DNA of 64,000 nucleotides from Botryosphaeria dothidea (lineage: Eukaryota > Ascomycota > Dothideomycetes > Botryosphaeriales > Botryosphaeriaceae), in NCBI GenBank assembly GCA_011503125.2, contig WWBZ02000062.1, positions 3,749,357-3,813,356 on the forward strand, in the 5' to 3' direction. This document shows, piece by piece, positions 3,998 to 64,000 of this stretch. The stretch's first letter is position 1. Every line of letters starts with the position of its first letter. The notes under the pieces were generated by a model. That model worked only from the letters and a program-made list of their open reading frames with translations. It had not been told where the DNA came from and searched no databases. A program made the translations under genes and the position numbers.

Positions 3998-4002
3998 TAA
4001 GT

Positions 4003-4234
4003 TATTAGGCTTCTTAAGCGCTACTATTTTAGATAACTAGATAGATACTTAATAGTAACTAGAGGCTTTAACTTTATTAAGAATAACTTAGTTAGATACT
4101 AAAGTATAGGCCTAGCGCTAAGCGACTAGGTATATTTACTCTTCGCCCTCTCTTTCTAGACTCTCTTTTTTTTCTTCTTATATATAGATTTTTAGTTAAA
4201 AGTAATACTATTATTTCGGCTTTACTACCTTATA
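4003..4234 (+). repeat. 5' LTR of Gypsy-B (232 bp)
   Basis: The boundaries come from comparison with the 3' LTR and from the taagt TSD. TG and CA termini are degraded to TA, as RIP would do. It contains the internal palindrome-like segment cctagcgctaagcg that the other copies share. Confidence 0.8.
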
Positions 4235-14332: not shown

Positions 14333-16794
14333 GAAGTCCTATAGAATTATCTCTTTACTAAACTACTTAGAAAAAGTTCTAGAGCGTATTATAGCTAAGA
14401 GGCTAGGCTATCTTATAGAGAAAACTACTCTACTAGACCCCTTATAAATAGAAGAAAGATTAAAGAAGTCTACCGTAGACGCCGCTCTTTTACTAACGAA
14501 TTTAGTAGAGGAAAATAAGGCTAAAGAGCTAAAAATCTCTACTTTATTCTTAGATATAAAAGAAGCCTTCGACTACGTTATCTAAGAGTAACTACTAGCT
14601 ATAATAGCTAGAATAGACTTTCTCGTTAGCCTCTTAGCGTAGATAAGGTTCTTTCTAAACTAGCGAAGGCTTCGGTTAAGTTTTAATAGAGAAATAGAAG
14701 AATTTAGTAAGATAGAAACTAGTATTCCGCAAGGAAGCCTAGTCTCCCCTATACTTTTTCTAATATATATCCGCGAACTCTTCCCCGAACGGCTTAAGAG
14801 ATAAATAATCTTTTTATCTTATATAGACGATATCTCGTTAACTACTAGTTCTACTAGCTAGAAAACGAATATATCTATCTTAGAAAAAGGTATAGATTAG
14901 GAGAGAATAGCGCGGTAGAATTCGACTTATTAAAGACGGAGTTAATCTACTTTAGTAAGGAGAAAAAAGCCCGTATTTCTAGTCTTAAACTACCCTCCGA
15001 GGACGTTATAGAATCTAAAAATCTAGTCCGTTAGCTAGGCGTTTTCTTTAACCCCCTACTTACTTTTAAAGAGTACGTATCTATAAGAGTAAGCTAGGTA
15101 AGGTCCGCCTTTTACCGGCTATCTAGACTCGCGAATATAGAGCGAGGGTTAAGCCCCTACGCCGTTAGATAACTTTATCTAGCGTGCGTAAACTCCGTTC
15201 TAGACTACGTATACGAAATCTACTAGAAAAACTAACTCGCATTTAAACGATAAGCTACTCTATTATAGAATCTAGCCCTTCGAAAGATTCTAGGGGTTTT
15301 TAAAACCGCCCCGATTATTCCGCTAGAGCTAGAAGCCGCTATCCTACCCCCCGAGGCACGTTTTAACGCGAAAATTCGGAATTACGCGCTTAGAACGTTA
15401 AAACTCGATAAAACCTATCCTATAAAAGCTACGCTTAATAGAATAGAACTAGAAGAACCGTACGAAAGAGCTAGTACACGGCTAGAAAAACTAAAAGAAT
15501 TTCTTCTATCTAATCCCCTCGGTCTCGACGAGGAACTAGATTTCTTTTATTTTTCTTCGTAGAACTAAGAAACCTCTTATACGGTTAGAATCTCTAGTAA
15601 ATCTAAGGAAGAAGAGGTAAAAGAATACTTAACCCTTCTTAAAAACCCTCCCTAAAATCTAATAACTATATATTCCGACGCTAGTTCTATTTCTAATAAA
15701 ACGGAAATCGGAGTTAGAATAGTAGTAGATAAGGGAAGCCTATCTAAAGAGGAGTAAACGAGAAAAGTTCTAAACTTAGGACCTAATTTACTAGTCTATA
15801 ACGAAGAACTCGAAGGTATAACTAGTGCCCTAGAGCTCGCCGTTAAGAATAGATACTCCTCGAAAGATATTAGAGTCTACGCGGATAACTAGGCCGCCCT
15901 CTATAGGCTTAAATCTCTATCCGGAAACTTCGGATAAGCGTGCTAAATAAGAGCCCTACGCGCGGCTAGAACGCTAAGAGAAAGGGATAATATAACTACC
16001 TTAGAATAGGTTCCCGGCTACCGGAATATAGTAGGAAACGAAGAAGCTAATTCCCTAGCAAAGTACGCGGTAAAATACCCTCTAAAAACTAAAGAATCTA
16101 GCCTAGCTTTCTACCGAATGCTAGTAAAGTAAGAACTAGATAAGGAGTAGCTCTTTAAAGCGGAAAAGCTTAAGAAACTAGCCCGAGAATCCTCCTATTT
16201 AAAAACGTTTAGTTAGAAAATAAGGAAAAAGCTAAATCTTCCTCCTACGGAGCGGGAAATAGCCTCCGTCTTTTACTAACTAAAAGTAGGACACGGCTAC
16301 TTTAAGTCCTACCTATATAGGTTCTCCTACGCGGAAACGGACCTATATACGTACGGAACGGCTAAATAAACCCCTAGATACCTTATACTAGGATGTTCTC
16401 TTTATAAAGCCCCCCGGCTTAAAATAAAAGAACGCCTAGAGATACTACGCCCTAGCCTTAATTTAGTTTTAAATACCCGAGAAGGTATTCTAGCTATACT
16501 AGAATATCTAAAAGAAACGAGGATCGCTACGCGGAAATAGCGCCTTAACGAACTATTCGAGAAGATTTAAAATACCTACTTATCCGCTTACGCTTCTTAT
16601 CTACTACTTCTTTAAACTCTCTTACTTTTCTTAGTATTAGTTATCTCGAAAGCCTAGATCTAACCGTTTCTTTTCTCTAACGTGCCTTTATCTTTCTCGA
16701 AACTACGTACCCCCTAGAAAGCTCCTTTAAATAGGGCCGTCTAGATAGTTTTTAACTTAGAGTAGACGTAAAATAAATTAATTAATTAATTAAT
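14333..16794 (+). mobile_element. LINE-F: 5'-truncated RIPed LINE with RT and RNase H, (TTAA)n tail
   Basis: This 2.46-kb insertion is flanked by a perfect 13-bp TSD, ctaaaccgccgcc (14,320-14,332 and 16,795-16,807). RT motifs include YLEKVLERIIAKRLGY (about 14,365), LFLDIKEAFDYV (about 14,545) and YIDDIS (about 14,820). RNase H follows (YSDASSIS at about 15,670; ELEGITSALELA at about 15,805). A His/Cys-rich C-terminal tract typical of Tad1/I elements lies near 16,260-16,420. Its TTAA-repeat tail shows a family different from LINE-D and LINE-E. It keeps somewhat more CpA/TpG than its host, so it may have been RIPed less or later. Confidence 0.85.
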
Positions 16795-17815
16795 CTAAAC
16801 CGCCGCCTCTTTTATATACGAGATTTTCTAATAGATATTATCTCTAACCGAGGTAGCGCTATAGACTTCTATATCTATAGAAGAACTATAGAACGATATA
16901 ATATAAAGATTAAAATATTAACTATCTTTTACCTCTAGACTAACGGCTAGAGCGAGAGCTCTATTAAAGGTCTTAAAAAGTATCTTCGGATATATATTAA
17001 CTACGCGTAAGATAACTAGATCGACTTTCTATCTAAAGCTAAATTTATAGCTAATATATATATTAGCGTATTAACTAGTATATCGCTATTCTTTATCGAT
17101 AACGAATTCTATCTACGTACTAGCTTAGAGCTTATAAAAATCTATTAGAGTACTAGAAAAGTAGAAGTAATTAGAATAGACTAGTTAGTTAAAAGATTAA
17201 ATACTATAAGAAGCTTCCTGTAAGAATAACTAGTCTAGATATAAAAAAAATAAGTCCGCTACGTAGATAAATTTCGCTAGCTATACTCTACTTTCCGTAT
17301 AGGCGATAAAGTATTTATTAACGCCTAAGACTTTAACCTAGAACGGAATAGTAAGTTTTTCTTACTAAAGAATCTTAGTCCGTAGAAAATTACTAGGTTA
17401 ATTAACGATAAAGTATACGAAGTTACTATACTTTCTTATATATAAGAGAAAGAAATTTTTTCTATATTTTACTTCTAGAAGCTATATCTTATTCTAAATA
17501 ATCTATACCTAAGTTAGATCTAGAAGTCTAGCCTAGTATACGTAATCTTTAATAAAAACGAGAATAAAATTTATAAGAAGTAAAAAGTACTAGAGGTAGT
17601 AAATTACTAAAATTTAAGATATAGAGTATAGTATAAGATTATCTTTATAGATAACTAAGATAAGTAAAACTTTAATCCTCTATAGTAATACTAGGGTAAC
17701 TATAAGAATACTTCTAATAAAATTCGTAAGTACTATATATACTATAAGAACGCGCCTAAGCTACCCGAATTTTTTAAAAAGCTTAGCGGACCTCGCTTAG
17801 AGAAGAGAAAGATAG
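16795..17815 (+). pseudogene. Gypsy-B integrase core and chromodomain-like end, RIP-destroyed
   Basis: After the LINE-F target repeat the integrase continues with a block recognisable as the second catalytic Asp region (IISNRGSA) and the usual ESSIKGLKKYLRIYINY stretch. A GPY-like region (about 17,280-17,500) and a chromodomain-like end (VLEVVNY, then YKIIFIDN at about 17,585-17,660) follow. Many stops are present. The chromodomain places Gypsy-B among the chromoviruses, but in a different family from the 40-kb element. Confidence 0.7.
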
Positions 17816-18047
17816 TATTAGACTTCTTAAGCGCTACTATTCTAAGTAACTAAATAGATATTTAATAGTAACTAAAGGCTCTAACTTTACTAAGAATAAC
17901 TTAGTTAAATACTAAGATATAGGCCTAGCGCTAAGCGACTAGATATATTTATTCTTCGCTCTCTCTTTCTAGACTCTCTTTTCTTTCTTTTTATATATAG
18001 ATTTTTAGTTAAAAATAATACTATTATTTCGGCTTTACTATCTTATA
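17816..18047 (+). repeat. 3' LTR of Gypsy-B (232 bp)
   Basis: It matches the 5' LTR at 4,003-4,234 apart from RIP-type differences, and is followed by the taagt TSD. Confidence 0.8.
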
Positions 18048-18052
18048 TAAGT

Positions 18053-19505
18053 TTAGTAAACTATATCTAGTTAAAAGACGAGAAATAGCTTAGATTTCTT
18101 AGCCTATTTAGCTCTCTCTTAGTTAGCTTTTTTTTTTTAAATCTCTTTTTTAGTCTAAACGTTAACTAGTTAGTTTAAAGCTATATCTTAGCCGTAGAAA
18201 TATCTTCTCTATATCTTTTTAGTACCGCTAGGCGGGCCTTAGTAGTCTTAGTCTAACGGGCTTTACGCGTTAGATAGAAGTTATTTTAGGCCGTATACTC
18301 TTAGTTATAGTTTATATATTACGTCTTCTCTTTAGAGTACTTATAGATATTATATATCTTAGTATATTAGCCGTATCTATTCTTTCTTCTATAGTAGATA
18401 GAGATATAACTATAATTCTAGTACTTAAAGTACTAAATTACTATAAAGATTATACTATAGTACTTTACTATATAAAGAGTATAGTTACTAATAAGTTCTT
18501 TAGTAATAATTTAGTTAGCTATTTTAGAATCTATAGTACTAAGAATAATAACTAAATATATTTTTTTTTTTAGAAGCTTTCTTTTTAGCTAGGCTAACTT
18601 ACTAATATATAGTTCTAAATATAGAAATAAATTTTAATTCTAAAGAGTTTAGGCGGCCTAAAGATTTTTAATATTAATATCTTTAAGAGAAACGTTATAG
18701 ACTAGTACTAAGTAGAACTACTAGTTAAAACGAACTTTTCTATTTAGTTTTATAGTCTATTTCTAATTCTAGAGAAGAACTACTCTAGTCTAAGTATTAG
18801 ATATAAAAAGTTTAATATCTCTACTAGAAAGCTTCTTAGCTACTAGTACTCTTTTATAAGCTAAGCTTTTCTTTATCTAAATTTTTTTAATAATAGTCTC
18901 GTTAGTAAGATTAGTAATCTTCTATCTATTAGTTTTATCTAAAAAATATAGAGTAAGCTTAGTAGTAGTTAGAGAGATAAAGAGTTTTAGAGCTACTTAG
19001 ACTATAATATTAGCTTAACTAAGTATTATAGACGTAAGAATAGTCTAGAGTTAACTAATTATCTTTTAAATCTATTAAATCTTCTTAAAAATATTCTTAA
19101 GGCCTAGCTTTTTAGTAGTCGCCTTTTAATAAATAGTAATATAATCTTAAAAGATTATCTTAGTAATATTAAGAAAATTTTTTATCTAGCTAGAGAGAAC
19201 TAAAGAGAGACTAGCGAATATTTATAAAGCTTAGAGAAAAGTATCTACTATTTTTAAAACTTTTTTAACGTATTCTACGCTATACTAAGTATTTTATAAT
19301 TTATTAAAGATACGCTATAATTAAGTAGAGATAGTTACTAAAGAAAGCTATTCGCCTCTTTCTACGGCTTCTATATTAATTATAATGCGACTATAGCTAC
19401 TCTAAGTAGTATTTTAAATCTCGTTAAATCTAGAAGAGTTTCTAAAGCTCTCTTTTAGCGCCGTAGCTTAGAGTCGATTTTTTAGCGTAGTTATATTTTT
19501 TATCT
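18053..19505 (-). mobile_element. LINE-C, 5' part (minus strand), RIPed
   Basis: The reverse complement matches LINE-E from its 5' end (about 7,174) to about 8,636. Together with 3,671-3,997 this is one LINE split by Gypsy-B. Its 5' end sits at about 19,500, next to Gypsy-C gag sequence, which was therefore its target. No frame is open. Confidence 0.75.
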
Positions 19506-20340
19506 TTTAACGATAATATTTAGCTTTATAAAGAGTTTTAAATAGCTATTTAAGAGAAATAAAAATAAAAGTAACTACTAAGAGAGCTAAGCTAATAGAA
19601 ATACTATTTTATATTTTATTAATCTTCTCTTCTTTAGTAAAATTAGTAAAAAACTAAAGTATATATAAGTAGGCGTAGTAAAAGTTTACCGTCTTTTTCT
19701 CGTTTTATTTAGTAAGAATAAAGTTATTAATAGCTTTTTTCTTTACGATATTTATTCTATATATCTTTTCTAACTTTTTTAAGAAATCTAGAGCTATCTA
19801 GTAGCTATTAATATACGGGCGTATTATAACGGTAATTAAATTAGTAAGACGAGAGTAGATATAGTAAATTATTAACTTTTAATTTTTTTAGAAGAAGTTC
19901 TCTTCGACTTTAAGCTTAAAAATTATATTATTTTTAAAGTTAATAAAAGCGTAGATATTAGTAGAGATAAGCTTATTAATATTTCTTATAAGTATCTTCT
20001 ATAAGTCTTAATAAGAGAGAATTCTTTATAAGATAGTAGTTTTCTTTCTTAGTTAACGTTCCTAGTTAAAACTATAAATATTAATATTAGAAAGAATATC
20101 TATATAAGAATTAGTAATATTCTTAGTTAGAAGGTTATTTTCTTAAATAAGCCGGCTAATCTTATTATTACTTTCTTTAATAACTCTATTAAATCTAGTA
20201 ATTATCTTCTTATAGATCTACTTAAGTTTTTTATACTTATTCTAAAAAGAGGCGTAGGTTATATACTCTTTACTAGTAGCTATTTAAGTAACTTAGAGGA
20301 TATAATAGAACTTAGTACGCTAATTTACTATTACTATAGT
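19506..20340 (-). pseudogene. Gypsy-C gag fragment, RIP-destroyed
   Basis: This is collinear with Gypsy-A from about 1,915 to 2,740 on the same strand, so it is a third copy of that gypsy family. It is cut by LINE-C on the left and by the gypsy-G-family LTR at 20,341 on the right. Only RIPed remnants of gag are left. Confidence 0.65.
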
Positions 20341-38472: not shown

Positions 38473-38902
38473 TGTTGGATTTTATAATAAATTGATTATC
38501 AACTGGACGAGTGGCGTGAGGAGTAGAGGGAGGTTTGAGACCGCCCCTTATATACTCCTAAGCGTGGGTTGCCTAAAGGTTGGTGTAATGAAGCGGAGGC
38601 AGATGGGTACAAGGGGCTTGGACCTGTAAGGTCTAATACAAGGGGCTAGGCTTGAGGGATAAGGAACAAGGGTAAAGGCGGAGAGATATAGGTAAGTCTA
38701 CGGAGAGCAAGGTGGTCCAAAGAGGATACAAAGTTACTAGACTAAAGAACTAACTACGAAGTAGAGGGGAGCGAGGTTTATATATATAAAGGACTAATTA
38801 AAATACTAGCTTTCTAATTTGTAAGCAGGTAAGTCTAGATCTTGGTTTTAAGTTGACGAAGGTAAAAAAGAAGTAAGGGGTCTGTAGACTAGAATCCTAA
38901 CA
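38473..38902. repeat. Solo LTR S1, copy 1 (430 bp)
   Basis: It begins TGTTGGAT and ends CCTAACA. Most of it (about 38,620-38,902) matches, inverted, the copy at 39,302-39,731. It contains a ttatatatataa TATA-like tract at about 38,778. No TSD was recognised. It sits immediately upstream of the small secreted protein gene. Confidence 0.65.
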
Positions 38903-39301
38903 CTTCCCCACTACTGTTGCTGGACGTATCGTAATAGATACCTAGGGCTCAGCGAGTAGTTAGATAGGAGTTTTAATTGAATTAAGGCGTTGTGGTGGAG
39001 TATTTTTGCGAAGACGCGTCTTGGGTTTGGTGGGGTGTCCGGATGACTGGTGAAACACGTTACCACTTTATTTATGTTTTAAAATACTTTTTTCGAAGCT
39101 TATCATCTTACGAAACACAACCATCTCCAACTTAATAAAACTATTTATAATAAGCCCTAAGGTAGTAATATTATACCACTTTATTTATGTTCTAAAATAC
39201 TTTTTCCAATAAGTATAAGAATTTGTTCCTACCCTCTGCTCGACTATCACCATAAAAAACCTCAACGACCTGTTAGGAATCACGTGTTTTCTGAAACCAA
39301 C
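38903..39301. other. Spacer between inverted solo LTRs, with a short duplicated block
   Basis: A 35-bp block, accactttatttatgtt followed by a similar ttaaaatactttt part, occurs at about 39,060-39,095 and again at 39,174-39,208. No gene was seen. Confidence 0.45.
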
Positions 39302-39731
39302 TGTTAGGATTCTAGTCTACAGACCCCTTACTTCTTTTTTACCTTCGTCAACTTAAAACCGAGATCTAGACTTACCTGCTTATAAATTAGAAAGCTAGTA
39401 TTTTAATTAGTCCTTTATATATATAAACCTCGCTCCCCTCTACTTCGTAGTTAGTTCTTTAGTCTAGCAACTTTATATCCTTCTTGGACCACCTTTGTCA
39501 GGATCTGACATGCGTGCTCCAGTAGTATTTGTACGTTGGGTGTGCGATCACTTCGTGATCGTACATTGTGCCTTTGGGCCCGCTCATGGCTGGTTGGAAA
39601 CCCAACAACTTTCGGTTCGTGACAACCTTGCTCTCCGTAGACTCACCTATGTCTCTCCGCCTTTACCCTTATTCCTTATCCCTTAAGCCTAGCCCCTTAT
39701 ATTAGACCTTACAGGTCCAAGCCCCTAACCC
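39302..39731. repeat. Solo LTR S1, copy 2 (inverted, truncated)
   Basis: It starts TGTTAGGATT, the reverse complement of the end of copy 1, and matches it inverted up to about 39,731, where the LINE-H 3' end begins. It is interrupted by a 129-bp mini-element. The last part of the LTR is missing, probably displaced by LINE-H. Confidence 0.65.
39496..39624. mobile_element. Mini-element M2 (129 bp) with perfect 5-bp TSD acctt
   Basis: It begins TGTCA and ends TGACA, with acctt at 39,491-39,495 and 39,625-39,629. The uninterrupted sequence is seen in S1 copy 1, which proves the insertion. A 7-bp perfect hairpin (cgatcac, loop ttc, gtgatcg; 39,545-39,561) lies inside. It is a tiny solo LTR or MITE. 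Confidence 0.75.
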
Positions 39732-40179: not shown

Positions 40180-40264
40180 TCATTTGTTACGGCGCAGCCT
40201 CCACAGGTTGAGGAAGTTAGGGATCAGCCCCGCCGGAACAACAGAAGTCGGGGTCATAAAGATC

Positions 40265-40282
40265 CGAGGTCACGTGACCTCG
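40265..40282. promoter_or_regulatory. 18-bp perfect palindrome with CACGTG core in the U3
   Basis: CGAGGTCACGTGACCTCG equals its own reverse complement. The core CACGTG is the E-box bound by fungal bHLH factors (Pho4, Cbf1 and SREBP types). It is present in all three LTRs in the window. Binding is inferred. Confidence 0.5.
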
Positions 40283-40283
40283 C

Positions 40284-40413
40284 GCTCAACTAGACCCACC
40301 CGCTCAGATTGCCAAGGCTGCCTGAGCGGGCCCCACCTACTGAGCCATCCTGCTCAATCACAACAGCTCGCTCAGAAGACTACGCGCCATTGAGCGCAAC
40401 CCGCCTATTGAGC
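40284..40413. promoter_or_regulatory. Cluster of eight GCTCA/TGAGC motifs in the U3
   Basis: Within 130 bp the pentamer occurs eight times in both orientations (starts 40,284, 40,302, 40,323, 40,340, 40,352, 40,370, 40,390 and 40,409), often as CGCTCA. It lies just upstream of the TATA box, as an enhancer or operator array would. Confidence 0.45.
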
Positions 40414-40440
40414 ACATAGATTGTATAGAACTCTCCTACG

Positions 40441-40447
40441 TATATAA
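40441..40447 (+). promoter_or_regulatory. TATA box of the chromovirus LTR
   Basis: The sequence tatataa predicts a transcription start at about 40,466-40,476, right at the R-region hairpin. Confidence 0.6.
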
Positions 40448-40467
40448 ACCACGCTCTCTAGATAGCT

Positions 40468-40484
40468 TTGACCTTCGTGGTCAA
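40468..40484 (+). promoter_or_regulatory. R-region hairpin, candidate self-primer
   Basis: TTGACC and GGTCAA form a 6-bp stem closing a TTCGT loop. The part GTGGTCAA (40,477-40,484) is complementary to the putative PBS at 40,665-40,672, just inside the LTR. This matches the self-priming layout of Tf1/sushi chromoviruses. Confidence 0.45.
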
Positions 40485-40664
40485 CTTCAATAACAATTCA
40501 GCACCAATTGTTAGTAACAAGGCCTTCGCACGCAGTGCTCAGTCTTCAGTCGTCTACTCGTTCCTCACGTACCTCTTCTTGTACCCACTCAAGGAAAACC
40601 CTCGACAGGTTTCCACCCTCTTTGGTGTTTGGATCCTTAGAGGTAGAGGCCCGCTCGTTACACT

Positions 40665-40672
40665 TTGACCAC
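40665..40672 (+). other. Putative primer-binding site
   Basis: TTGACCAC begins two bases inside the 5' LTR end and lacks the TGG start expected for tRNA priming. It can pair over 8 nt with the transcript's own 5' region. Confidence 0.45.
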
Positions 40673-40759
40673 CATCCTTGCAAGGAGAGGGACCGTTCAG
40701 GAAGAACGAGTTATTAGGTTAAGTATCACCCCGCCTAACGCGTTTAGGGAAAGCATACA

Positions 40760-42589
40760 ATGGCACCAGGATCTCAGATGGACGTCGACCCAACGGAGGG
40801 CCGCGCTGAGGGTGCCCCAGGGCGTGCTCCGCCCGCGCTGCAAACAGAGCCTACCAGAGCTGAGCTCTTACAACTCATCGAGGAGTTGAAAGCTCAGAAC
40901 GCTCGACTGATCGAGCACACGACAAAGCGGAGCGCTACTAAGGTTAAAGTAGCGGCACCCGAGAAGTTCGATGGGGACAGGAAGAAGCTCCAATCCTTCC
41001 TACTCCAGATGCAACGCTACCTCCAGTTTAACCAAGCACAATTCGACAACGACGCCGAAGAAGTGCTCTTCGCATCAACCTACCTCAGAGGAACGGCAGA
41101 AGCATGGATGGAACCATACCTTCGCGACCACCTAGCCAACGAACACTCTCTCGAGAAGAGACGGGCAAAGACCAAGGAAATCTTCGACACCTACACGGGA
41201 TTCGCAGACAACCTTAGGGCCACTTTCAACGATCGGGACGAAGTCCGCAAAGCCTCTAACGATATTATGACCGTTAGACAGATGGGATCTGTAGCTGTCT
41301 ACGCAACCAAGTTTCAGCAGCTTGCAGCCTACCTCGAATGGTCAGACGAGACTTTCCGCGACCTCTTCTATAAAGGCCTGAAGGACGAAGTCAAGAAGAA
41401 CATGATCACTCACGAATACCCACCTACCTTTCAGAAGATGGTAGACCTTGCGTCTCAGATCGACGGTCGCATGTACGAATGGAAGATGGGTTCTCGACAA
41501 TCCAACACCTCGAAGCCCCGCCGTGAAAGAACAACCCTCGAAGGCGGAGACGCTATGGCCCTCGACGCGGCCAACAGACAGGATTCCAAGAAGGGCAACA
41601 ATGGTCACAACAACAAGAAGCCCAAGGGACCTAACCCGAACTGGACGGATGAGCAGAAACAGCGCTATAAGGATCGACTCTGCATCACCTGCGGCAGTGA
41701 CAAACACTTCTCTCCTAAGTGTCCGCAGAACCCTCGCAGCAAGAAGGACAACAAGCAGACTTCGAGCGCTCAGCGTGAAGCGTCGGTTGCATCTCGCCAA
41801 GACAACCACGATACGCTACACTGGACAGCCTGTTACGATGACGGCTGTCAGACGCACCAAACCAGCAAGGATATCTCTGGATGGTACCCCCACGAACCTC
41901 GAAACTTCGGTATGATGACCAGGAACGAAGAAGTCATCGAAACCGACGATATCATCGATAGTTTCCCTCTAGACGACGAACTTGTCAACAGCGAAACAGG
42001 AGAACTATACGAGAGTACTAGTGAAACGCAGTCAGATAATGCACCTATACCATCGGACAAACTAGACACCCTCGTCTCGTTAGAAGTTCTCGCTGAAAGA
42101 TACGGCATTGGCAACCACCTACGGGACGAATGGGGCAATCTTAGTCAAACAATCTGGATTCCGCATCAGAAAGGCATCGCGCTTACGGTCATTTGGGGAT
42201 GGCGTCAGAACACCCTTTGGGAAACCCGAATTGAACAAGACGGGAAGAAGTACGAACTTCCGGTGACCAAAGAAACGACACTCGTCGAACGCCACCACCA
42301 AGGAACCTCAGCACGCGAGCAAGCAGACTACGACTCCCTCCGGGAACTAGCACGGATTCTCTGCCAGTACGGCACGGCAACGATCCAGCATCGTACACTC
42401 CAGTGGATTCCGGACAAGAAGCTCAATCGACCAACCTTTAGATATCAGGTTCGAAAGGACAAAGTCTACTGGCGAAGGAAGCAGAACTCCGACAAATGGA
42501 CCAACTGGAAGCAAGCATATCTCCAAGTCAACGAATGGGAAGACTATATGCACAGTGAAGTCTACGGCTACCCTATGCCAAAAAACTAG
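40760..42589 (+). CDS. gag: Gag of chromovirus copy 1
   Basis: A 609-residue capsid/nucleocapsid protein. The first ATG after the LTR (MAPGSQMDVD) is the start. A coiled-coil-like segment is followed by the retrotransposon gag domain at about residues 70-230 (LQRYLQFNQ-type region, GTAEAWMEPYL). A CCHC zinc knuckle (C308-x2-C311-x4-H316-x4-C321) follows for RNA binding. The 280 residues after the knuckle are an unusual long extension of unknown role, acidic then Trp/Lys-rich. The frame ends CCA AAA AAC TAG, where a slippery heptamer allows -1 entry into pol. It is expected to form particles in the cytoplasm. It is intact in this copy. Confidence 0.9.
   Translation: MAPGSQMDVDPTEGRAEGAPGRAPPALQTEPTRAELLQLIEELKAQNARLIEHTTKRSATKVKVAAPEKFDGDRKKLQSFLLQMQRYLQFNQAQFDNDAEEVLFASTYLRGTAEAWMEPYLRDHLANEHSLEKRRAKTKEIFDTYTGFADNLRATFNDRDEVRKASNDIMTVRQMGSVAVYATKFQQLAAYLEWSDETFRDLFYKGLKDEVKKNMITHEYPPTFQKMVDLASQIDGRMYEWKMGSRQSNTSKPRRERTTLEGGDAMALDAANRQDSKKGNNGHNNKKPKGPNPNWTDEQKQRYKDRLCITCGSDKHFSPKCPQNPRSKKDNKQTSSAQREASVASRQDNHDTLHWTACYDDGCQTHQTSKDISGWYPHEPRNFGMMTRNEEVIETDDIIDSFPLDDELVNSETGELYESTSETQSDNAPIPSDKLDTLVSLEVLAERYGIGNHLRDEWGNLSQTIWIPHQKGIALTVIWGWRQNTLWETRIEQDGKKYELPVTKETTLVERHHQGTSAREQADYDSLRELARILCQYGTATIQHRTLQWIPDKKLNRPTFRYQVRKDKVYWRRKQNSDKWTNWKQAYLQVNEWEDYMHSEVYGYPMPKN
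42580..42586 (+). promoter_or_regulatory. -1 ribosomal frameshift site A AAA AAC at the gag stop
   Basis: In the gag frame the last codons are AAA AAC preceded by A, a canonical X XXY YYZ heptamer, directly followed by the TAG (42,587-42,589). Slipping one base back reads CTA GAC GGC and on into the pol frame with no stop. The site is unchanged in copy 2 (63,515-63,521). Confidence 0.75.
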
Positions 42590-42603
42590 ACGGCCCTACG
42601 GCA

Positions 42604-45600
42604 ATGGGACCAACCCAGGGGCCACAGTCTAGGTCCCTTCATATGGTATCGCGCACATCGGAAACGGAAACTCTTACCGGACCAAACCTATGGAAACAGT
42701 TCAAGACACAAGGAATACTCAACGGAGTACCCACTAGAATCCTGATCGATACAGGATTAAGCGGAAATTTCATCCACAACGAGCTTGTGCAGAAGATGAA
42801 TATCCCATACCGCAAGAAACAGGAACCGTATCCCCTCAGTGGATTCGACGGATCCCAGGCAGCCTACGGAGAAGGCTGGGTAAAGATAGAAACGGAGGAA
42901 GCAACCCTCCAGATAGGGAACCATCAAGAACGGATTTCCCTCGACGTCCAACGTATTCCTGGGCACGATATCATTCTAGGTATGCCCTGGATCCGGACAC
43001 AGAAACCTATCTTCGACTTCGGAGAAGGAGACTCCATTATCTTTCGAGAGGAGCTCGAGGACCTCCTACGAAAACAAGGATTACAGAAGGAGAATGGGTT
43101 GTTGGATACCCTTCGAAAGCTCCTATCGACATCAACACGGGAAGTAGCCAGTGTAAGGCCTGAATGTGGCAACTGTGTAGGCGACTCCGATAGTGGTGTA
43201 AGTCAGCACCAGGACTGCGACGCAAGTAGCGAAGCCTCCTCGGTAAAATGCAACCCTATTGCAGGAATAAGCCCTACTAAGCGAAACGATACCCCCGACT
43301 TAAGATACGACTCTAGCCACGATGGCGTGAGGCCTAGTGACGGCAGCATCAACGGCAATGATGGCGTAAGGCCCAGCGACGGCAGCATCAACGGCAACCT
43401 TAAGGAAAGCGTAAAACAGGACCAGGACAGTAGCGTACGAGACGCCGCCTCCTCGGTAAAATGCAGCACCTCAAGCGGAGTAAGACCAACCGAGTCTAGT
43501 ATTCCCGACGAACAAGTACAGCATACGTCACGAAGGACTACGAGGAAAAGGCATAAGGCTAAGAGTAAGGCTTCGCGTAAGCAATTAGCAGCCACTGAAC
43601 CTCAAGTCGACGTCCAGACAATCTCAGGAGAGGCATTCAAGCGTATGAGACGCCAAGGCCAGCAGGTCTGCCTCATGTACATCAAACCCTCACAGGCGGT
43701 GCAACAGAGAGCACTAGCCAAGGCCGCACGGGAAAGGCTTAAGGATGAGGATAGTCCTACTCCCATTGGAGGAGACGATCCCGCGAGGATTAGAAGGGGA
43801 CAACACGGTAGTTTGGAGACATGGAACAATCCATACGGAGAACCTCCAATACCGGAAATGGAAACGGTACCCAGCGAGTACTGGGACTTAAAAGCCGTTT
43901 GCCAAGAAAGAGGAAAAGGAGATTTGCCGAAGCATCAACCATGGGACCACGAGATTCCACTCAAGCCGGGCACGAAGCCAGCTTATAAGCCCATCTACTC
44001 CTTATCAGCAAAGGAAATGGAGGCTTTAAGGGAATACATCGAGAAGAACCTCGAACGCGGATATATTCGGCCTTCAACGTCATCAGCCGGATATCCGATC
44101 CTTTTCGTCCCAAAGAAGAATGGCAAACTACGCCTCTGTGTCGACTACCGACAACTCAACGACATCACGATCAAGAACCGCTATCCGCTCCCACGCATCG
44201 ACGAGCTCCAGGACAAGTTAGGGAAAGCAAAGTACTTTACGAAGCTGGACCTCCGGGAAGGATATCACCTGGTTAGGATCAAAGAAGGGGAAGAATGGAA
44301 GACAGCCTTCAGAACGAGGCTAGGACTCTACGAGTATACGGTTATGCCATTCGGGCTTACCAACGCGCCAGCAACTTTCCAAAATCTTGTCAACGATACG
44401 CTGCGCGAATACTTGGATATCTTCTGCTTAGCTTACCTCGACGATATCCTCATCTTTTCAGAGACCCTCGAGGATCATAAGAAGCATGTCAGAAAGGTCC
44501 TAGAAGCCCTCCAGGCAAAGAATCTGTCTATCGCACCCGAGAAATGCGAATGGCACGTTCAAAGGACAGAATTCTTAGGCTTTGTCATCACCCCAGGTCA
44601 CGTCGGTATGGACGACTCGAAACTGGATTCCATTAGAGAATGGCCAGTACCCAAGACGATCAAGGAAGTTCAGTCTTTCCTTGGATTCGCGAACTTCTAC
44701 CGAAAGTTCATTTGGAACTACTCAAAGGTCACGGAACCTTTAACGCGACTCACTCGAAAGGAGCATGGCTTCAAATGGGGAGACGATCAGCAGCAAGCCT
44801 TCGAATCGCTTAAACGCATGTTTTGCGAAGCACCGGTTCTAGGGATATATGATCCCGACAAACCTATCGAAGTAGAAACTGATGCGTCAGGATTCGCCCT
44901 CGGAGCATGTCTCAGCCAGCCTGACGATCAAGGTCGATGGCACCCAATCGCGTTTTACTCTAGGAAGTTCACACCGGCAGAGCTCAACTACGATACTCAC
45001 GACAAGGAGCTCTTAGCTATCGTCTCAGCATTTAAGCAATGGAGACACTATCTTGAAGGAGCCAGCTACCAGGTGGTAGTGCACTGCGATCATCAAAACC
45101 TCACGCGCTTCACCACGACTAAGGAGCTGAACCGACGACAGGTTCGCTGGTCTGAAGAAATGGCCTCCTACGATTTTAAGATTACACATAGAAAAGGTGT
45201 AGATAACGCCGCCGCTGACGCGCTCAGTAGAAGGGTAGACTACATGGAAGGACGAATCGAGCCGCACCCTGCAGTGTTCGCAGTGGATAGCGATGGATCG
45301 CTCACCCTTGCCAGACCGTCTTTCCCAATGCTTCGCATCGAGTCAAACCCATGGCATCTGAAGATCCGAGAAGCATACGCACAGGACTCCTTCGCGCAGG
45401 AACTTTTAGCGCTTGAGGACGACCCGCGTATTGCTCGAGATAGGGAAGGAACGCTTCTCTTCAAAGGATTAATCTATGTCCCGGCAAGACTGCGAGAAGT
45501 ACTAGTCAAGGATATACACGAAGCACCCGCGCATGGACATCAGGGCATCGACAGGACAACCGAAAGGATCACACGAAACTTCTACTTTCCAGGGTTACGG

Positions 45601-45750
45601 AAGACAGTCCAGCGCATAGTCTCGCAATGTGACCTTTGCATTAGAAGCAAAGCCGCGACACACGCTCCGTACGGACAACTACAACCCCTAGAAGTTCCAG
45701 AACGACCATGGCAATCGGTTACGCTAGACTTTATTACGAAGCTGCCATAG
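42604..45750 (+). CDS. pol: Pol, part 1: protease, RT, RNase H, integrase start (ends at RIP-type TAG)
   Basis: This 1,048-codon frame is in -1 register to gag. The aspartic protease motif ILIDTGLSG lies at residues 46-54; L52 is TTA where copy 2 has TCA (DTGSSG). RT follows with LRLCVDYRQLND and the catalytic YLDD (about 44,435). RNase H starts with EVETDASGFALGACL (about 44,870). The integrase zinc finger (H-x3-H ... CDLCIRSK, about 45,520-45,650) and the first catalytic Asp (VTLDFITKLP) close the frame at TAG 45,748-45,750. CAG-to-TAG at a CpA is the simplest origin. Translation probably starts by frameshift from gag, not at this ATG. It would make reverse transcriptase but only a stub of integrase. 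Confidence 0.9.
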   Translation: MGPTQGPQSRSLHMVSRTSETETLTGPNLWKQFKTQGILNGVPTRILIDTGLSGNFIHNELVQKMNIPYRKKQEPYPLSGFDGSQAAYGEGWVKIETEEATLQIGNHQERISLDVQRIPGHDIILGMPWIRTQKPIFDFGEGDSIIFREELEDLLRKQGLQKENGLLDTLRKLLSTSTREVASVRPECGNCVGDSDSGVSQHQDCDASSEASSVKCNPIAGISPTKRNDTPDLRYDSSHDGVRPSDGSINGNDGVRPSDGSINGNLKESVKQDQDSSVRDAASSVKCSTSSGVRPTESSIPDEQVQHTSRRTTRKRHKAKSKASRKQLAATEPQVDVQTISGEAFKRMRRQGQQVCLMYIKPSQAVQQRALAKAARERLKDEDSPTPIGGDDPARIRRGQHGSLETWNNPYGEPPIPEMETVPSEYWDLKAVCQERGKGDLPKHQPWDHEIPLKPGTKPAYKPIYSLSAKEMEALREYIEKNLERGYIRPSTSSAGYPILFVPKKNGKLRLCVDYRQLNDITIKNRYPLPRIDELQDKLGKAKYFTKLDLREGYHLVRIKEGEEWKTAFRTRLGLYEYTVMPFGLTNAPATFQNLVNDTLREYLDIFCLAYLDDILIFSETLEDHKKHVRKVLEALQAKNLSIAPEKCEWHVQRTEFLGFVITPGHVGMDDSKLDSIREWPVPKTIKEVQSFLGFANFYRKFIWNYSKVTEPLTRLTRKEHGFKWGDDQQQAFESLKRMFCEAPVLGIYDPDKPIEVETDASGFALGACLSQPDDQGRWHPIAFYSRKFTPAELNYDTHDKELLAIVSAFKQWRHYLEGASYQVVVHCDHQNLTRFTTTKELNRRQVRWSEEMASYDFKITHRKGVDNAAADALSRRVDYMEGRIEPHPAVFAVDSDGSLTLARPSFPMLRIESNPWHLKIREAYAQDSFAQELLALEDDPRIARDREGTLLFKGLIYVPARLREVLVKDIHEAPAHGHQGIDRTTERITRNFYFPGLRKTVQRIVSQCDLCIRSKAATHAPYGQLQPLEVPERPWQSVTLDFITKLP

Positions 45751-47520
45751 TCTAGAGACTCGCTTACCGGAGTTAAGCACGACTCGATCCTAGTCTTTGT
45801 CGACAGACTCACGAAGTACGCTTACTTCTTGCCCTACCTCGAGGCATCGAATGCAGAGCAGCTAGCTCATACGTTCCTCCGATACATCTTCGCGGATCAC
45901 GGAATGCCGGAAGAACTGGTTTCGGACAGAGATAAGCTAATGCGTTCTGAATTCTGGCAAACGCTCATGCGTCAACTTGGGGCTAAGAACAAACTCTCTA
46001 CAACCGCACACCCGCAAACGGACGGTCAGACAGAACGGATGAACCGGACTCTCGAACAATATCTCCGCTGTTTCGTCAACTACCCACAGGACGATTGGGC
46101 CACATGGCTACCTATGGCACAGTTCGCCTACAACAGCGCCAAACAAGAGTCAACCAACGTATCCCCGTTCTTTGCCAACTATGGATTCGAACCAGACGCG
46201 TATAGAGAAGCCATCCCAAGTCGAAAATTGGCCCAACAAGGTGTTCTTAAAGCCGAGCAGCTAAAAGAACTACACAAAGCCATCAGTCTCGACCTCGAGC
46301 ACGTACGAATCATGATGTCCAAGTACTACAACAGACGGCACCAGGCGGCACCGAACCTAAAGAGGGGGGATAAAGTATACCTCCTCACAAAAAACATCAA
46401 ATCGAAGCGACCAAGCGACAAATTGGATTTCAAGAAAACCGGTCCATTCGAAATTTCAGAAAAACTTGGAAACGTTACGTATCGACTCAAATTGCCAGCA
46501 ACGACACGAATGAATTCCACCTTTCACGTGGCATTGCTCGAGCCAGCACCAGAAAACGCCACAATCCCAGAAACTCCAGAAGAGATAATCCCAGAAAACC
46601 CAGATGCCGAAGAAGACGAATACCCAGTCGAGAAAATCTTAGACTGCAAAAGATTCGGACATCAGCTCAAATATCTTGTCAAATGGGAAGGATACGGAAA
46701 TGAGGATAACCAATGGGTACCCAAGGACGACATACATCCAGATCTCGTCACAGAATTCCACCGTCAAAATCCCGACCTCCCACGGAAACGAGGTCGTCCC
46801 CGAACGAGAACGGCGAGAGACCCTCAAGATAGGGGGATAAACGGGCAGAATTCACAGGCTCAGGAGAGCACGGAGATTTCGCACCAGCCACAGGCTCGCC
46901 GGCAGACTCGGCAGACTCAGCCACATGCGGCGCAGCAAGACCCACCGTCTCGTGACGTGGCCGTTTTGACGCGGACGGACCCTCAGAATTCTCAGGGTCA
47001 GGAGCGTACCCCTCATCCTCGGCCAGCGCAGCCAGCAACTCCTCCGCTTCCCGACGATCATGCTCATCCAACGCGGCCAAACTACCAGACTCAGCAAGAA
47101 GAGCCTTGTAACCACGCTCCTCCAACAAACGCTGGTTGGCCCGCAACCGTTTCAAACGAGCAGCAACAGTCCCTAGCTCTTTCTCCTGGCATCGCAGGAC
47201 CTCCTCATGACGACGATGCATCTCCTCTTGCTCCCGCCGTAAGCGCACTCGCTCTTCCTCCTGAACAGCACGGAGCCTATCAAGATCAGCCAGAGAAGCC
47301 AGAAACTTCTCTTGAGCCTCGGCCTCCTTGGCCTTTAACTTCTCCTGCTCGCGGCGAAGACTTAAGGCTAGAAAACGTGAGCAAGCATCCCGGACAGAAG
47401 AAAAGACCACCTACCTCCAGAAAGCGACATCTTCTTCGCATCACACATCGTAGTACCCTTCGCAATACAAGCACCACAACGATCGTGTTCCGGAGCAACC
47501 TTACACGGCCTACCGTTTAG
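45751..47520 (+). pseudogene. pol: Pol, part 2: integrase core, GPY/F, chromodomain, AT-hook
   Basis: The frame continues in register after the single TAG. The integrase core shows LVFVDRLTKYAYFLPY, ELVSDRDKL (second Asp) and QTDGQTERMNRTLEQYL (Glu). A GPY/F module (KTGPFEISEKL) and a chromodomain (about 46,618-46,760: VEKILDCK, LKYLVKWEGYG, NQWVP) follow, then RKRGRPRTR, an AT-hook core. Chromodomains direct integration to methylated-H3 chromatin. From about 46,830 the frame is Gln/Pro/Thr-rich and overlaps the antisense gene, so this tail may be a shadow of it. There is no start codon of its own, so it depends on read-through. Confidence 0.85.
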
Positions 47521-47622
47521 TTCACAATCAAAGCAGGGACGAATCGCGGGAAAGGAAATAGACTCCACGAGGGCCGCCAAACGACGTCGTTCCTCCGTAG
47601 TATCCCGCTTACGTTTAGACAT
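46748..47622 (-). CDS. Antisense spliced gene: Zn2Cys6-type cluster plus coiled coil (275 aa)
   Basis: Exons lie at 47,415-47,622 and 46,748-47,367. The 47-nt intron (47,368-47,414) has a G|GTAGGT donor, a CTCAC branch motif (branch A at 47,378) and a TTTCTAG acceptor, and both exons join in frame. The start MSKRKRD is basic. Residues 30-60 hold C-x2-C-x6-C-x8-C-x2-C-x7-C (C30, C33, C40, C49, C52, C60), within the spacing of Gal4-type Zn(II)2Cys6 DNA-binding clusters. A long charged coiled coil follows (about 70-170, with repeats such as LRREQE), then an acidic Ser/Pro-rich C-terminus. The start is 98 bp from the 3' LTR, so a promoter reading out of the LTR is likely. A nuclear regulator of the element is the inference; no such protein is standard in chromoviruses. 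Confidence 0.7.
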
Positions 47623-47707
47623 GATGGACTTACGGAGAGAAAGTAAGCCAGGAAGAACCCACAAGGAAATAGGCAATACGGAAGAATCTTCGGGCCGAAG
47701 ATCCTTA

Positions 47708-47720
47708 AGGGGGGGGATAG
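47708..47720 (+). other. Polypurine tract before the 3' LTR
   Basis: A run of purines (aagggggggg, then atag) abuts the LTR start at 47,721 and would prime plus-strand DNA synthesis. Confidence 0.8.
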
Positions 47721-48198
47721 TGTTACGGCGCAGCCTCCACAGGTTGAGGAAGTTAGGGATCAGCCCCGCCGGAACAACAGAAGTCGGGGTCATAAAGATC
47801 CGAGGTCACGTGACCTCGCGCTCAACTAGACCCACCCGCTCAGATTGCCAAGGCTGCCTGAGCGGGCCCCACCTACTGAGCCATCCTGCTCAATCACAAC
47901 AGCTCGCTCAGAAGACTACGCGCCATTGAGCGCAACCCGCCTATTGAGCACATAGATTGTATAGAACTCTCCTACGTATATAAACCACGCTCTCTAGATA
48001 GCTTTGACCTTCGTGGTCAACTTCAATAACAATTCAGCACCAATTGTTAGTAACAAGGCCTTCGCACGCAGTGCTCAGTCTTCAGTCGTCTACTCGTTCC
48101 TCACGTACCTCTTCTTGTACCCACTCAAGGAAAACCCTCGACAGGTTTCCACCCTCTTTGGTGTTTGGATCCTTAGAGGTAGAGGCCCGCTCGTTACA
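47721..48198 (+). repeat. 3' LTR of chromovirus copy 1 (478 bp)
   Basis: It reads as identical to the 5' LTR at 40,185-40,662 and is followed by the TSD tcatt. Confidence 0.95.
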
Positions 48199-48203
48199 TC
48201 ATT

Positions 48204-61119: not shown

Positions 61120-61597
61120 TGTTACGGCGCAGCCTCCACAGGTTGAGGAAGTTAGGGATCAGCCCCGCCGGAACAACAGAAGTCGGGGTCATAAAGATCC
61201 GAGGTCACGTGACCTCGCGCTCAACTAGACCCACCCGCTCAGATTGCCAAGGCTGCCTGAGCGGGCCCCACCTACTGAGCCATCCTGCTCAATCACAACA
61301 GCTCGCTCAGAAGACTACGCGCCATTGAGCGCAACCCGCCTATTAAGCACATAGATTGTATAGAACTCTCCTACGTATATAAACCACGCTCTCTAGATAG
61401 CTTTGACCTTCGTGGTCAACTTCAATAACAATTCAGCACCAATTGTTAGTAACAAGGCCTTCGCACGCAGTGCTCAGTCTTCAGTCGTCTACTCGTTCCT
61501 CACGTACCTCTTCTTGTACCCACTCAAGGAAAACCCTCGACAGGTTTCCACCCTCTTTGGTGTTTGGATCCTTAGAGGTAGAGGCCCGCTCGTTACA
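61120..61597 (+). repeat. 5' LTR of chromovirus copy 2 (478 bp)
   Basis: It differs from the copy 1 LTRs at one seen base, 61,345 (TG to TA context). Confidence 0.95.
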
Positions 61598-61694
61598 CTT
61601 TGACCACCATCCTTGCAAGGAGAGGGACCGTTCAGGAAGAACGAGTTATTAGGTTAAGTATCACCCCGCCTAACGCGTTTAGGGAAAGCATACA

Positions 61695-63524
61695 ATGGCA
61701 CCAGGATCTCAGATGGACGTCGACCCAACGGAGGGCCGCGCTGAGGGTGCCCCAGGGCGTGCTCCGCCCGCGCTGCAAACAGAGCCTACCAGAGCTGAGC
61801 TCTTACAACTCATCGAGGAGTTGAAAGCTCAGAACGCTCGACTGATCGAGCACACGACAAAGCGGAGCGCTACTAAGGTTAAAGTAGCGGCACCCGAGAA
61901 GTTCGATGGGGACAGGAAGAAGCTCCAATCCTTCCTACTCCAGATGCAACGCTACCTCCAGTTTAACCAAGCACAATTCGACAACGACGCCGAAGAAGTG
62001 CTCTTCGCATCAACCTACCTCAGAGGAACGGCAGAAGCATGGATGGAACCATACCTTCGCGACCACCTAGCCAACGAATACTCTCTCGAGAAGAGACGGG
62101 CAAAGACCAAGGAAATCTTCGACACCTACACGGGATTCGCAGACAACCTTAGGGCCACTTTCAACGATCGGGACGAAGTCCGCAAAGCCTCTAACGATAT
62201 TATGACCGTTAGACAGATGGGATCTGTAGCTGTCTACGCAACCAAGTTTCAGCAGCTTGCAGCCTACCTCGAATGGTCAGACGAGACTTTCCGCGACCTC
62301 TTCTATAAAGGCCTGAAGGACGAAGTCAAGAAGAACATGATCACTCACGAATACCCACCTACCTTTCAGAAGATGGTAGACCTTGCGTCTCAGATCGACG
62401 GTCGCATGTACGAATGGAAGATGGGTTCTCGACAATCCAACACCTCGAAGCCCCGCCGTGAAAGAACAACCCTCGAAGGCGGAGACGCTATGGCCCTCGA
62501 CGCGGCCAACAGACAGGATTCCAAGAAGGGCAACAATGGTCACAACAACAAGAAGCCCAAGGGACCTAACCCGAACTGGACGGATGAGCAGAAACAGCGC
62601 TATAAGGATCGACTCTGCATCACCTGCGGTAGTGACAAACACTTCTCTCCTAAGTGTCCGCAGAACCCTCGCAGCAAGAAGGACAATAAGTAGACTTCGA
62701 GCGCTCAGCGTGAAGCGTCGGTTGCATCTCGCCAAGACAACCACGATACGCTACACTGGACAGCCTGTTACGATGACGGCTGTCAGACGCACCAAACCAG
62801 CAAGGATATCTCTGGATGGTACCCCCACGAACCTCGAAACTTCGGTATGATGACCAGGAACGAAGAAGTCATCGAAACCGACGATATCATCGATAGTTTC
62901 CCTCTAGACGACGAACTTGTCAACAGCGAAACAGGAGAACTATACGAGAGTACTAGTGAAACGCAGTCAGATAATGCACCTATACCATCGGACAAACTAG
63001 ACACCCTCGTCTCGTTAGAAGTTCTCGCTGAAAGATACGGCATTGGCAACCACCTACGGGACGAATGGGGCAATCTTAGTCAAACAATCTGGATTCCGCA
63101 TCAGAAAGGCATCGCGCTTACGGTCATTTGGGGATGGCGTCAGAACACCCTTTGGGAAACCCGAATTGAACAAGACGGGAAGAAGTACGAACTTCCGGTG
63201 ACCAAAGAAACGACACTCGTCGAACGCCACCACCAAGGAACCTCAGCACGCGAGCAAGCAGACTACGACTCCCTCCGGGAACTAGCACGGATTCTCTGCC
63301 AGTACGGCACGGCAACGATCCAGCATCGTACACTCCAGTGGATTCCGGACAAGAAGCTCAATCGACCAACCTTTAGATATCAGGTTCGAAAGGACAAAGT
63401 CTACTGGCGAAGGAAGCAGAACTCCGACAAATGGACTAACTGGAAGCAAGCATATCTCCAAGTCAACGAATGGGAAGACTATATGCACAGTGAAGTCTAC
63501 GGCTACCCTATGCCAAAAAACTAG
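61695..63524 (+). pseudogene. gag: Gag of chromovirus copy 2, stop after the zinc knuckle
   Basis: It is the same as gag of copy 1 up to residue 332, with one His-to-Tyr change (codon with 62,079). Gln333 is now TAG (62,691-62,693), just 11 residues past the last knuckle cysteine, and the neighbouring AAC is AAT (62,687). Capsid and nucleocapsid could still be made, but the C-terminal extension and frameshift access to pol are lost. The frame after the stop is open to 63,524. Confidence 0.9.
63515..63521 (+). promoter_or_regulatory. -1 frameshift heptamer, copy 2
   Basis: A AAA AAC directly before the gag TAG, as in copy 1. Confidence 0.7.
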
Positions 63525-63538
63525 ACGGCCCTACGGCA

Positions 63539-64000
63539 ATGGGACCAACCCAGGGGCCACAGTCTAGGTCCCTTCATATGGTATCGCGCACATCGGAAAC
63601 GGAAACTCTTACCGGACCAAACCTATGGAAACAGTTCAAGACACAAGGAATACTCAACGGAGTACCCACTAGAATCCTGATCGATACAGGATCAAGCGGA
63701 AATTTCATCCACAACGAGCTTGTGCAGAAGATGAATATCCCATACCGCAAGAAACAGGAACCGTATCCCCTCAGTGGATTCGACGGATCCCAGGCAGCCT
63801 ACGGAGAAGGCTGGGTAAAGATAGAAACGGAGGAAGCAACCCTCCAGATAGGGAACCATCAAGAACGGATTTCCCTCGACGTCCAACGTATTCCTGGGCA
63901 CGATATCATTCTAGGTATGCCCTGGATCCGGACACAGAAACCTATCTTCGACTTCGGAGAAGGAGACTCCATTATCTTTCGAGAGGAGCTCGAGGACCTC
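63539..64000 (+). CDS. pol: Pol of chromovirus copy 2, N-terminal part (cut by window end)
   Basis: This is the first 154 codons of pol, open to the window edge. The protease active site reads ILIDTGSSG, the normal gypsy form, in contrast to Leu in copy 1 (base 63,693 is C here, T at 42,758). Because gag of this copy carries a stop upstream of the frameshift site, its pol could be reached only by read-through or internal initiation. Confidence 0.85.
   Translation, partial: MGPTQGPQSRSLHMVSRTSETETLTGPNLWKQFKTQGILNGVPTRILIDTGSSGNFIHNELVQKMNIPYRKKQEPYPLSGFDGSQAAYGEGWVKIETEEATLQIGNHQERISLDVQRIPGHDIILGMPWIRTQKPIFDFGEGDSIIFREELEDL

Follow-up and report, generated by a model that had tools for sequence, protein, structure and literature searches.

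The 64-kb stretch of DNA analyzed here (the window; G000:C58:3749357-3813356) lies at a contig end in a genome of 51.7 Mb and 78 contigs, and contains an LTR retrotransposon whose last coding part is overlapped on the opposite strand by a second gene. This arrangement raises the question of what such a gene does for the element that carries it. A first-pass annotation had proposed that the element encodes its own DNA-binding regulator. That proposal is partly supported, as the gene is genuine, is under purifying selection, belongs to the element and changes together with an array of short sites in the LTRs; it is qualified by the score of the protein, which misses the threshold of the Pfam Zn_clus family. 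The explanation that we favor, at a probability of roughly 60%, is a functional antisense gene whose Zn2Cys6-like coiled-coil protein would act on the U3 array of the element's own LTRs.

The chromovirus and its antisense gene

The element is a Ty3/gypsy chromovirus, with a 5-bp target-site duplication, LTRs, capsid, protease, reverse transcriptase, RNase H, integrase and chromodomain all in place; the integrase H2C2 and SH3 domains were also found by a Pfam scan (Table 1). Pol is split into two open parts in the window copy. Genome-wide, an open frame of 1653 aa contains 14 of the 20 best pol matches, one of these 14 matches being interrupted by a stop. The pol tail past the chromodomain is a plus frame without detectable constraint and lies opposite the antisense gene.

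Several features surround the element. A second copy of the same chromovirus, cut by the contig end, occupies 61120-64000 and is identical to 40185-43065 at 2874 of 2881 bases. Nested long inverted repeats (197 nt at 96% and 106 nt at 94%) lie directly left of the element at 38612-39726, and about 12 kb between 50000 and 62000 show a strong purine skew (GC skew 0.24-0.57) with many short purine-rich tandem repeats. Positions 1-20000 are AT-rich (GC 0.24-0.36) and adjoin a GC-richer part, as expected for repeats mutated by RIP. No described RNA families and no tRNA were found in the 64-kb window (ARAGORN was run with the bacterial code).

Table 1. Features of the chromovirus and of its antisense gene, in window coordinates.
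Feature	Position	Strand	Remarks
Target-site duplication, left	40180..40184		TCATT
5' LTR	40185..40662	+	478 nt, identical to 3' LTR
U3 array, 5' LTR	40284..40413		eight TGAGC/GCTCA half-sites
gag	40760..42589	+	Ty3 capsid / Retrotrans_gag; open frames, Pfam
pol, first open part	42604..45750	+	protease, RT, RNase H, integrase H2C2
pol, second open part	45829..47520	+	integrase C-terminal SH3, chromodomain ending near 46765
Antisense exon 2	46748..47367	-	charged coiled-coil-like region of ~120 aa, then Ser/Pro-rich tail
Antisense intron	47368..47414	-	47 nt, GT-AG (GTAGGT...CTCAC...TTCTAG)
Antisense exon 1	47415..47622	-	predicted zinc-cluster domain
Palindrome ATCTTCGGGCCGAAGAT	47686..47702		just before polypurine tract; read by eye
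3' LTR	47721..48198	+	478 nt
U3 array, 3' LTR	47820..47949		eight half-sites, ~200 nt upstream of antisense ATG
Target-site duplication, right	48199..48203		TCATT

The minus-strand join described in the first-pass annotation was reproduced in frame and gives 275 aa before a stop, with the six cysteines spaced C-x2-C-x6-C-x8-C-x2-C-x7-C as claimed. Fourteen AG acceptors lie within 120 nt of the donor, and with two of them, at 47 and 104 nt, the frame stays open to the same stop. The intron, which is predicted to be spliced in the cell, stays GT-AG at 46-49 nt in copies of subfamilies A (that of the window), B and C; an equally placed GT-AG intron can be recognized in the E (43 nt, or 47 nt as judged by eye), F (45 nt) and H (48 nt) types, and the G type has no recognizable donor there. 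A charged stretch follows the cysteines as had been reported, the first 122 residues of exon 2 being 44% D/E/K/R with four P/G, and its coil is judged from this composition rather than by a predictor. The plus frame is open across the antisense gene to 47520 in the window copy, so that the overlap of the two strands is real.

The Zn2Cys6 family (PF00172) has the consensus C-x2-C-x6-C-x5..12-C-x2-C-x6..8-C, and its members carry basic residues between Cys2 and Cys3. This cysteine pattern has a single six-frame match in the 64-kb window, and 20,000 shufflings of the exon 1 codons never reproduce it. The window protein fits the spacing, as do the B and F types; the E type has Tyr in place of Cys2 and the C copies have Tyr at several positions, and the G type, with 16 residues separating Cys2 from Cys3, and the H type, with 15 separating Cys3 from Cys4, fall outside canonical spacing. 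The HMM search of the joined protein that had been suggested as a check gave 11.0 bits against a Zn_clus gathering score of 21, and filing the protein under that family was rejected on this score. Zn_clus matches were obtained for three of the eight members of A1, the best at E 0.082. Basic residues between Cys2 and Cys3 are few in the window protein (ELNGRP); the F and H types read RSSNSK and RSKGKE. The low score, the scarcity of basic residues in the window protein and the deviant spacings of G and H weigh against our favored explanation. For low-confidence models of exon 1 the listed PDB structural matches are Zn2Cys6 domains, all of them weak, and absences in these structure searches carry no weight as evidence. 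A sequence search of the PDB returned nothing relevant, the coil giving just E 0.78-0.80 to C/EBP alpha (phmmer), and both TRP28 (PF04195) and the bZIP families are absent among Pfam matches at E<=1. The best reading of the protein is a Zn2Cys6-like regulator that would bind its own LTR, zinc binding and DNA binding both being predicted.

Distribution of the gene and selection on its reading frame

At least 45 matches to exon 1 are present in the genome (20 at 100%; 39 of the 45 without a stop), along with 45 matches to exon 2, 20 of them without a stop. When exon-1 matches were paired with the best 76 of the 126 pol matches, pol was found on the opposite strand within 2.5 kb for 42 of the 45. 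In total, 74 of the 126 are accompanied by some antisense type, and most of these exceed about 50% identity in pol. Exon-1 matches of the A/B/C/E kind account for 42; types D, D', F, G and H account for 27 of the 34 others in the top 76 (two of the 27 are fragments of a single copy) and for 5 of the 50 that remain. Absence of the gene was read directly at one locus, L060 (pol 45%), which has no cysteine-cluster frame and whose LTR, by eye, comes straight after the chromodomain; at the other low-identity pol matches absence means simply that no match was found. These associations support the view that the antisense gene belongs to the element.

The first-pass annotation had asked for the two overlapping frames to be compared in related elements, and this comparison supports purifying selection on the antisense reading frame. 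Older copies have been mutated by RIP: in four old copies of subfamily A, CpA accounts for 268 of the 329 C-to-T changes, against 99 of the 494 C sites. For this reason the count was restricted to changes beyond the reach of RIP, namely transversions, and substitutions in which an A or T of the window corresponds to G or C in the copy. Between the window and L023 of subfamily B there are 58 such coding changes, divided 14/8/36 among the codon positions. In the minus frame 19 of the 58 alter an amino acid, where a fraction of 0.69 ± 0.05 is expected and none of 500 reshuffles is as low, whereas in the plus frame the same changes are altering in 44 of 55 cases (expected 0.68), which is not reduced. 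The minus-frame count is again 19 of 58 in L025, L026 and L028 and is 22 of 55 in L030; these B copies share changes with L023 and one another and are not independent. In subfamily C the altering changes number 51 of 97 (L051) and 49 of 95 (L052) in the minus frame (expected 0.74; 0/500), and 77 of 95 and 79 of 93 in the plus frame, again not reduced. With only three such changes apiece, the closer old A copies (L021, L022, L024, L027, L029) carry no information.

Taken one at a time in the window codon, the counted changes give one minus-frame stop in L023 and two in C (expected 1.9 and 4.1), and these stops, which RIP cannot have made, count against our favored explanation; plus-frame stops number 0 and 2 (expected 0.6 and 1.5). 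Shared exon indels in B and C are of 12 nt, and the intron indels are of 1 and 4 nt. Extra 1-nt exon changes are present in L026 and L019, and in L024, L029 and L030 2 or 4 nt are missing from the extreme end, the point at which the extracted match broke off.

These data bear on two explanations that would dispense with a functional protein. The minus frame could be a chance open frame, the shadow of the plus-strand pol tail, which the openness of the plus frame in the window copy would allow; this is refuted by constraint that falls on the minus frame and not on the plus frame, and we regard it as scarcely credible. A plus-frame stop also lies opposite an open exon 1 in L023, L025, L028 and L030, a weak point since the changes are RIP-like. 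Alternatively, the antisense transcript could work as RNA, controlling the sense transcript as an siRNA or lncRNA, with the frame incidental. Passages of PMC10648671 describe spliced antisense transcripts of transposable elements in Blumeria, Ty3 elements included, and call them noncoding. However, an RNA function needs neither amino-acid-level constraint, nor shared indels that keep the frame, nor conserved cysteines, and the minus-frame constraint largely refutes it for this element family; we consider it very improbable.

The U3 half-site array and its change with the zinc-cluster exon

The window LTR carries GCTCA at LTR positions 100, 118, 168 and 186 and TGAGC at 139, 157, 207 and 225. 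These eight copies in the first 300 nt of the LTR compare with a shuffle mean of 0.97 and a maximum of 4 in 1000 shuffles; a ninth copy lies in R-U5 at position 353. The sense TATA (TATATAAAC) begins 27 nt past the end of the array in the 5' LTR. Arrays in this and other subfamilies, arranged by hand, consist of four pairs of half-sites in alternating orientation, with a spacing that is two-fold symmetric or nearly so: 18-21-18-11-18-21-18 in A (TGAGC), 18-20-18-11-18-20-18 in C, 18-19-17-12-18-19-18 in B, 8-19-8-11-8-19-8 in E (TGAAC), 9-22-9-14-9-22-9 in F (TGATC) and 9-31-9-14-9-33-9 in F'. With the registers placed in this way, one site each in C, E, F and F' and three in B fall outside the TGANC form.

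Site positions are identical at 36 of 40 between A and C, and likewise between A and B, compared with 41 of 88 and 39 of 85 spacer positions, respectively (p about 1e-6). The unedited B alignment gives a weaker contrast, with transversions at 4 of 40 site and 25 of 90 spacer positions, for which misplaced gaps are partly responsible. A comparison of sites and spacers between the two modules of one array, partly circular because the sites were picked for likeness, gives p 0.15 in C and 1e-5 to 0.0015 in the other five.

We also scored the commonest k-mer in each U3 against 500 shuffles; this test was devised after the TGAGC array had been seen, and is blind to the motif, not to the region. No shuffle of the 500 reached the counts of GCTCA in A (8), AACTGA in L057 (7) and AACTAA in L056 (5), both of subfamily C, GTTCA in E (7; best 6-mer 7/500) or GGATCA in H (6). 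GATCA in F (7) gave 2/500 and GATCAA (6) 0/500, with the same counts and values in F' (L059). The test was not significant in B (L030, 316/500 and 17/500 for the 6-mer; L026, 292/500 and 206/500), G (36/500 and 37/500) or D (500/500 and 250/500), and the gene-less L060 has no array (401/500; 6-mer 63/500). The TGANC repeat is absent from all 11 R-U5 control stretches (that of D is too short), in which low values reflect ATATA runs (H 6/500; C 19/500 and 38/500) and a tandem CCCTCG in L060 (2/500).

The D type is without a TGANC array, which, like the failure of the B, G and D copies in the 5-mer test, counts against the favored explanation. A D-type repeat, CCCTTAA..ACGG, is seen three times by eye and fails the exact k-mer test. 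Within the subfamily C array of L057 (1-321), long perfect palindromes (GCTCAGTTGCCAAGGCCAACTGAGC) extend the half-site to AACTGAGC.

Of the 20 young A loci, six lack the perfect array in the complete LTRs that were read, with half-site 8 changed, and this we count against our favored explanation. In all six (L035, L036, L041, L044, L048, L050) the G at LTR position 226 has become A; in L035, L036 and L048 the change is in both LTRs, so the variant has been transmitted.

The E type (on C10) and the F type are 96% and 94% identical to the window in pol, respectively, by the integrase-chromodomain query. In global alignments with the window, the E antisense gene has an identity of 0.94 in its C-terminal part, 0.37 in the coil and 0.52 in the zinc-cluster exon; toward and within the LTR, the values are 0.92 from the palindrome to the LTR start, 0.35 in U3 before the array, 0.35 in the array and 0.91 in TATA-R-U5. 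For F they are 0.38 (coil), 0.41 (zinc-cluster exon), 0.84 (palindrome), 0.41 (array) and 0.88 (TATA-R-U5), and the antisense C-terminal part is also unlike that of the window (0.06, mostly gaps). By these alignments, the zinc-cluster exon and the U3 array have been replaced jointly in E and F, while the LTR start and R-U5 stay 84-92% identical. The array thus changes together with the zinc-cluster exon, as a self-acting regulator predicts.

The D type gives 0.72 in the C-terminal part, 0.34 in the zinc-cluster exon, 0.86 at the palindrome and 0.35 in the array, with R-U5 partly covered. Its eight genes match at 75-99%, and seven have a D-type U3 piece 186 nt upstream. The 25 places with D-type U3 comprise these seven, six at the expected 5' LTR position, one beside an A-type gene (L022) and 11 outside these classes. 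L022 is rearranged: judged by its matches, the 3' part of the internal region directly follows an A-type LTR and is itself followed by a D-type LTR, and exon 1 of the A-type antisense gene bears a 244-nt insert. For the pol match that the 2.5-kb rule assigns to L022 (C58:2592492), a D'-type gene is the closer neighbor. We read L022 as a rearranged remnant, yet its combination of A gene and D LTR counts against the regulator-array model.

The 3' part of the antisense gene (in 46748-47367) is nearly identical among A, B, C and E, types whose 5' parts are strongly different. The sharp border between these two parts of the gene suggests recombination between elements. The palindrome ATCTTCGGGCCGAAGAT is, by eye, largely kept across lineages, even in one with 63% pol identity, and varied in H and D; it may serve as a further binding site or as a structure for priming.

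About 500 nt at most separate the zinc-cluster exon from U3, so one recombination tract could shift both without a functional link, and this adjacency is counted against the favored explanation. The two might then co-travel merely as fast-evolving neighbors, with tandem and inverted duplication having generated the arrays as by-products. In this region template switching is to be expected, and module duplication would yield the spacing symmetry. However, half-sites are kept where spacers have diverged, and the block between exon and array (palindrome, polypurine tract and LTR start) is 84-92% identical with both flanks near background. We think this account unlikely.

Enhancers in LTRs are commonly sites for host factors. 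An example from Ty1 is described in a passage of PMC10787394. Host transcription factors, differing by lineage, might likewise bind the U3 arrays, with the antisense protein acting otherwise, in nuclear import or in Gag or RNA binding. The correspondence of half-site and domain is not one-to-one, a point against the favored explanation: A, B and C share TGAGC though the C exon is about 60% identical to that of A, and GATC-type sites are common to F, G and H, whose domains differ widely (G and H just 26% and 33% identical to F). That such different lineages have GATC-type sites in common speaks for host factors. Yet within this one genome the half-site base and the spacing vary with the zinc-cluster exon and not with pol, and the eight-site two-fold architecture survives changes of base and spacing. 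Binding by host factors is a somewhat less remote prospect than mere co-travel of neighbors, and we still rate it as improbable.

Proposed regulation and comparison with known systems

For the self-acting regulator, we propose that leftward transcription of the antisense gene probably starts in the 3' LTR or just beside it; the promoter would lie there or in 47623-47720. The protein most likely binds the two-fold symmetric TGANC array in its own U3, as dimers or higher multimers. The array of the 5' LTR lies just upstream of the sense TATA and that of the 3' LTR upstream of the antisense gene; given this position in both LTRs, a single protein could govern how much of each transcript is made, as an activator or repressor of gag-pol and a regulator of its own gene. 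The coil is 85 residues long in A, 77 in B and 81 in C (from deletions), and about 55 in E and about 40 in F (by eye). Long coils (A, B, C) go with 18-bp pairs and short ones (E, F) with pairs of 8-9 bp, the two pair spacings differing by about one helical turn; this two-group correlation, read partly by eye, offers a prediction rather than proof.

Such a protein and its array may give the element a genetic switch of its own. It is conceivable, though we lean slightly against it, that each chromovirus lineage here has a private regulator-operator pair, in which an antisense zinc-cluster protein reads the base and spacing of eight U3 half-sites, exchanged as one specificity cassette and forming regulatory groups. 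If this were so, exchange between near-identical elements would create immunity or copy-number groups within one genome, much as regulatory groups arise from the repressor-operator pairs of phages and plasmids. With a candidate target found inside the element, in the form of a symmetric half-site array that switches with the zinc-cluster exon, function becomes directly testable with a small protein and a short DNA.

The first-pass annotation is also qualified by published work. An antisense gene, brtn, is in print for the chromodomain-bearing Boty of Botrytis cinerea (Zhao et al., 2011, Virology 417:248; cited in PMC7264820, PMC4227169 and PMC8365987, and BRTN is also mentioned in PMC5987419). 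As described in these citing papers, brtn likewise sits in antisense orientation between pol and the 3' LTR, in a fungal element that has gag-pol and a chromodomain; the citing passages mention no LTR site array. Among the openly licensed papers listed in our searches, we found no report of a Zn2Cys6 antisense gene in such an element, or of LTR sites for one. Plant elements have genes in the same place and orientation, namely gene23 of Grande and those of RIRE2 and Retand (TRP28), and a DNA-binding or regulatory role has been suggested for plant antisense ORFs (PMC7264820 and PMC11963269, in the passages concerned). Retand is of a non-chromovirus lineage and has TRP28 (PF04195), unlike the window protein. 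A passage of PMC7264820 states that the function of antisense ORFs between pol and the 3' LTR is not known; protein-level selection is shown here for a gene of a kind reported in plants and fungi without known function.

Crapaud of Podospora anserina, a chromodomain LTR element studied for RIP, has subfamilies that differ in the 5' half of the LTR, and the cause of this U3 diversification is left open in PMC10787394. There the element is drawn with two ORFs, and the word "antisense" is absent from the text. A regulator-array pair could explain such U3 subfamily splitting in fungal chromoviruses.

Gal4-type regulators (Pho7, Leu3, Ppr1, Put3 and Gal4) share the cysteine spacing, the order of zinc cluster then coil, and paired half-sites, theirs being CGG. 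The exon-1 models show weak structural similarity to this type. Unlike these, the window protein lies below the Pfam threshold, is encoded by a retroelement, and would recognize TGANC rather than CGG in sites grouped by eight. A parallel is HBZ of HTLV-1, a spliced antisense gene expressed from the 3' LTR whose product, a nuclear protein with a coiled coil, regulates the 5' LTR. Its antisense origin is noted in PMC3112605, and passages of PMC7264820 place an antisense promoter in the HTLV 3' LTR. HBZ differs in being a bZIP protein of a retrovirus rather than a zinc cluster, and no homology to the window protein is seen; the gene described here would be a retroelement-encoded transcription factor that arose independently of retroviral Tat or HBZ.
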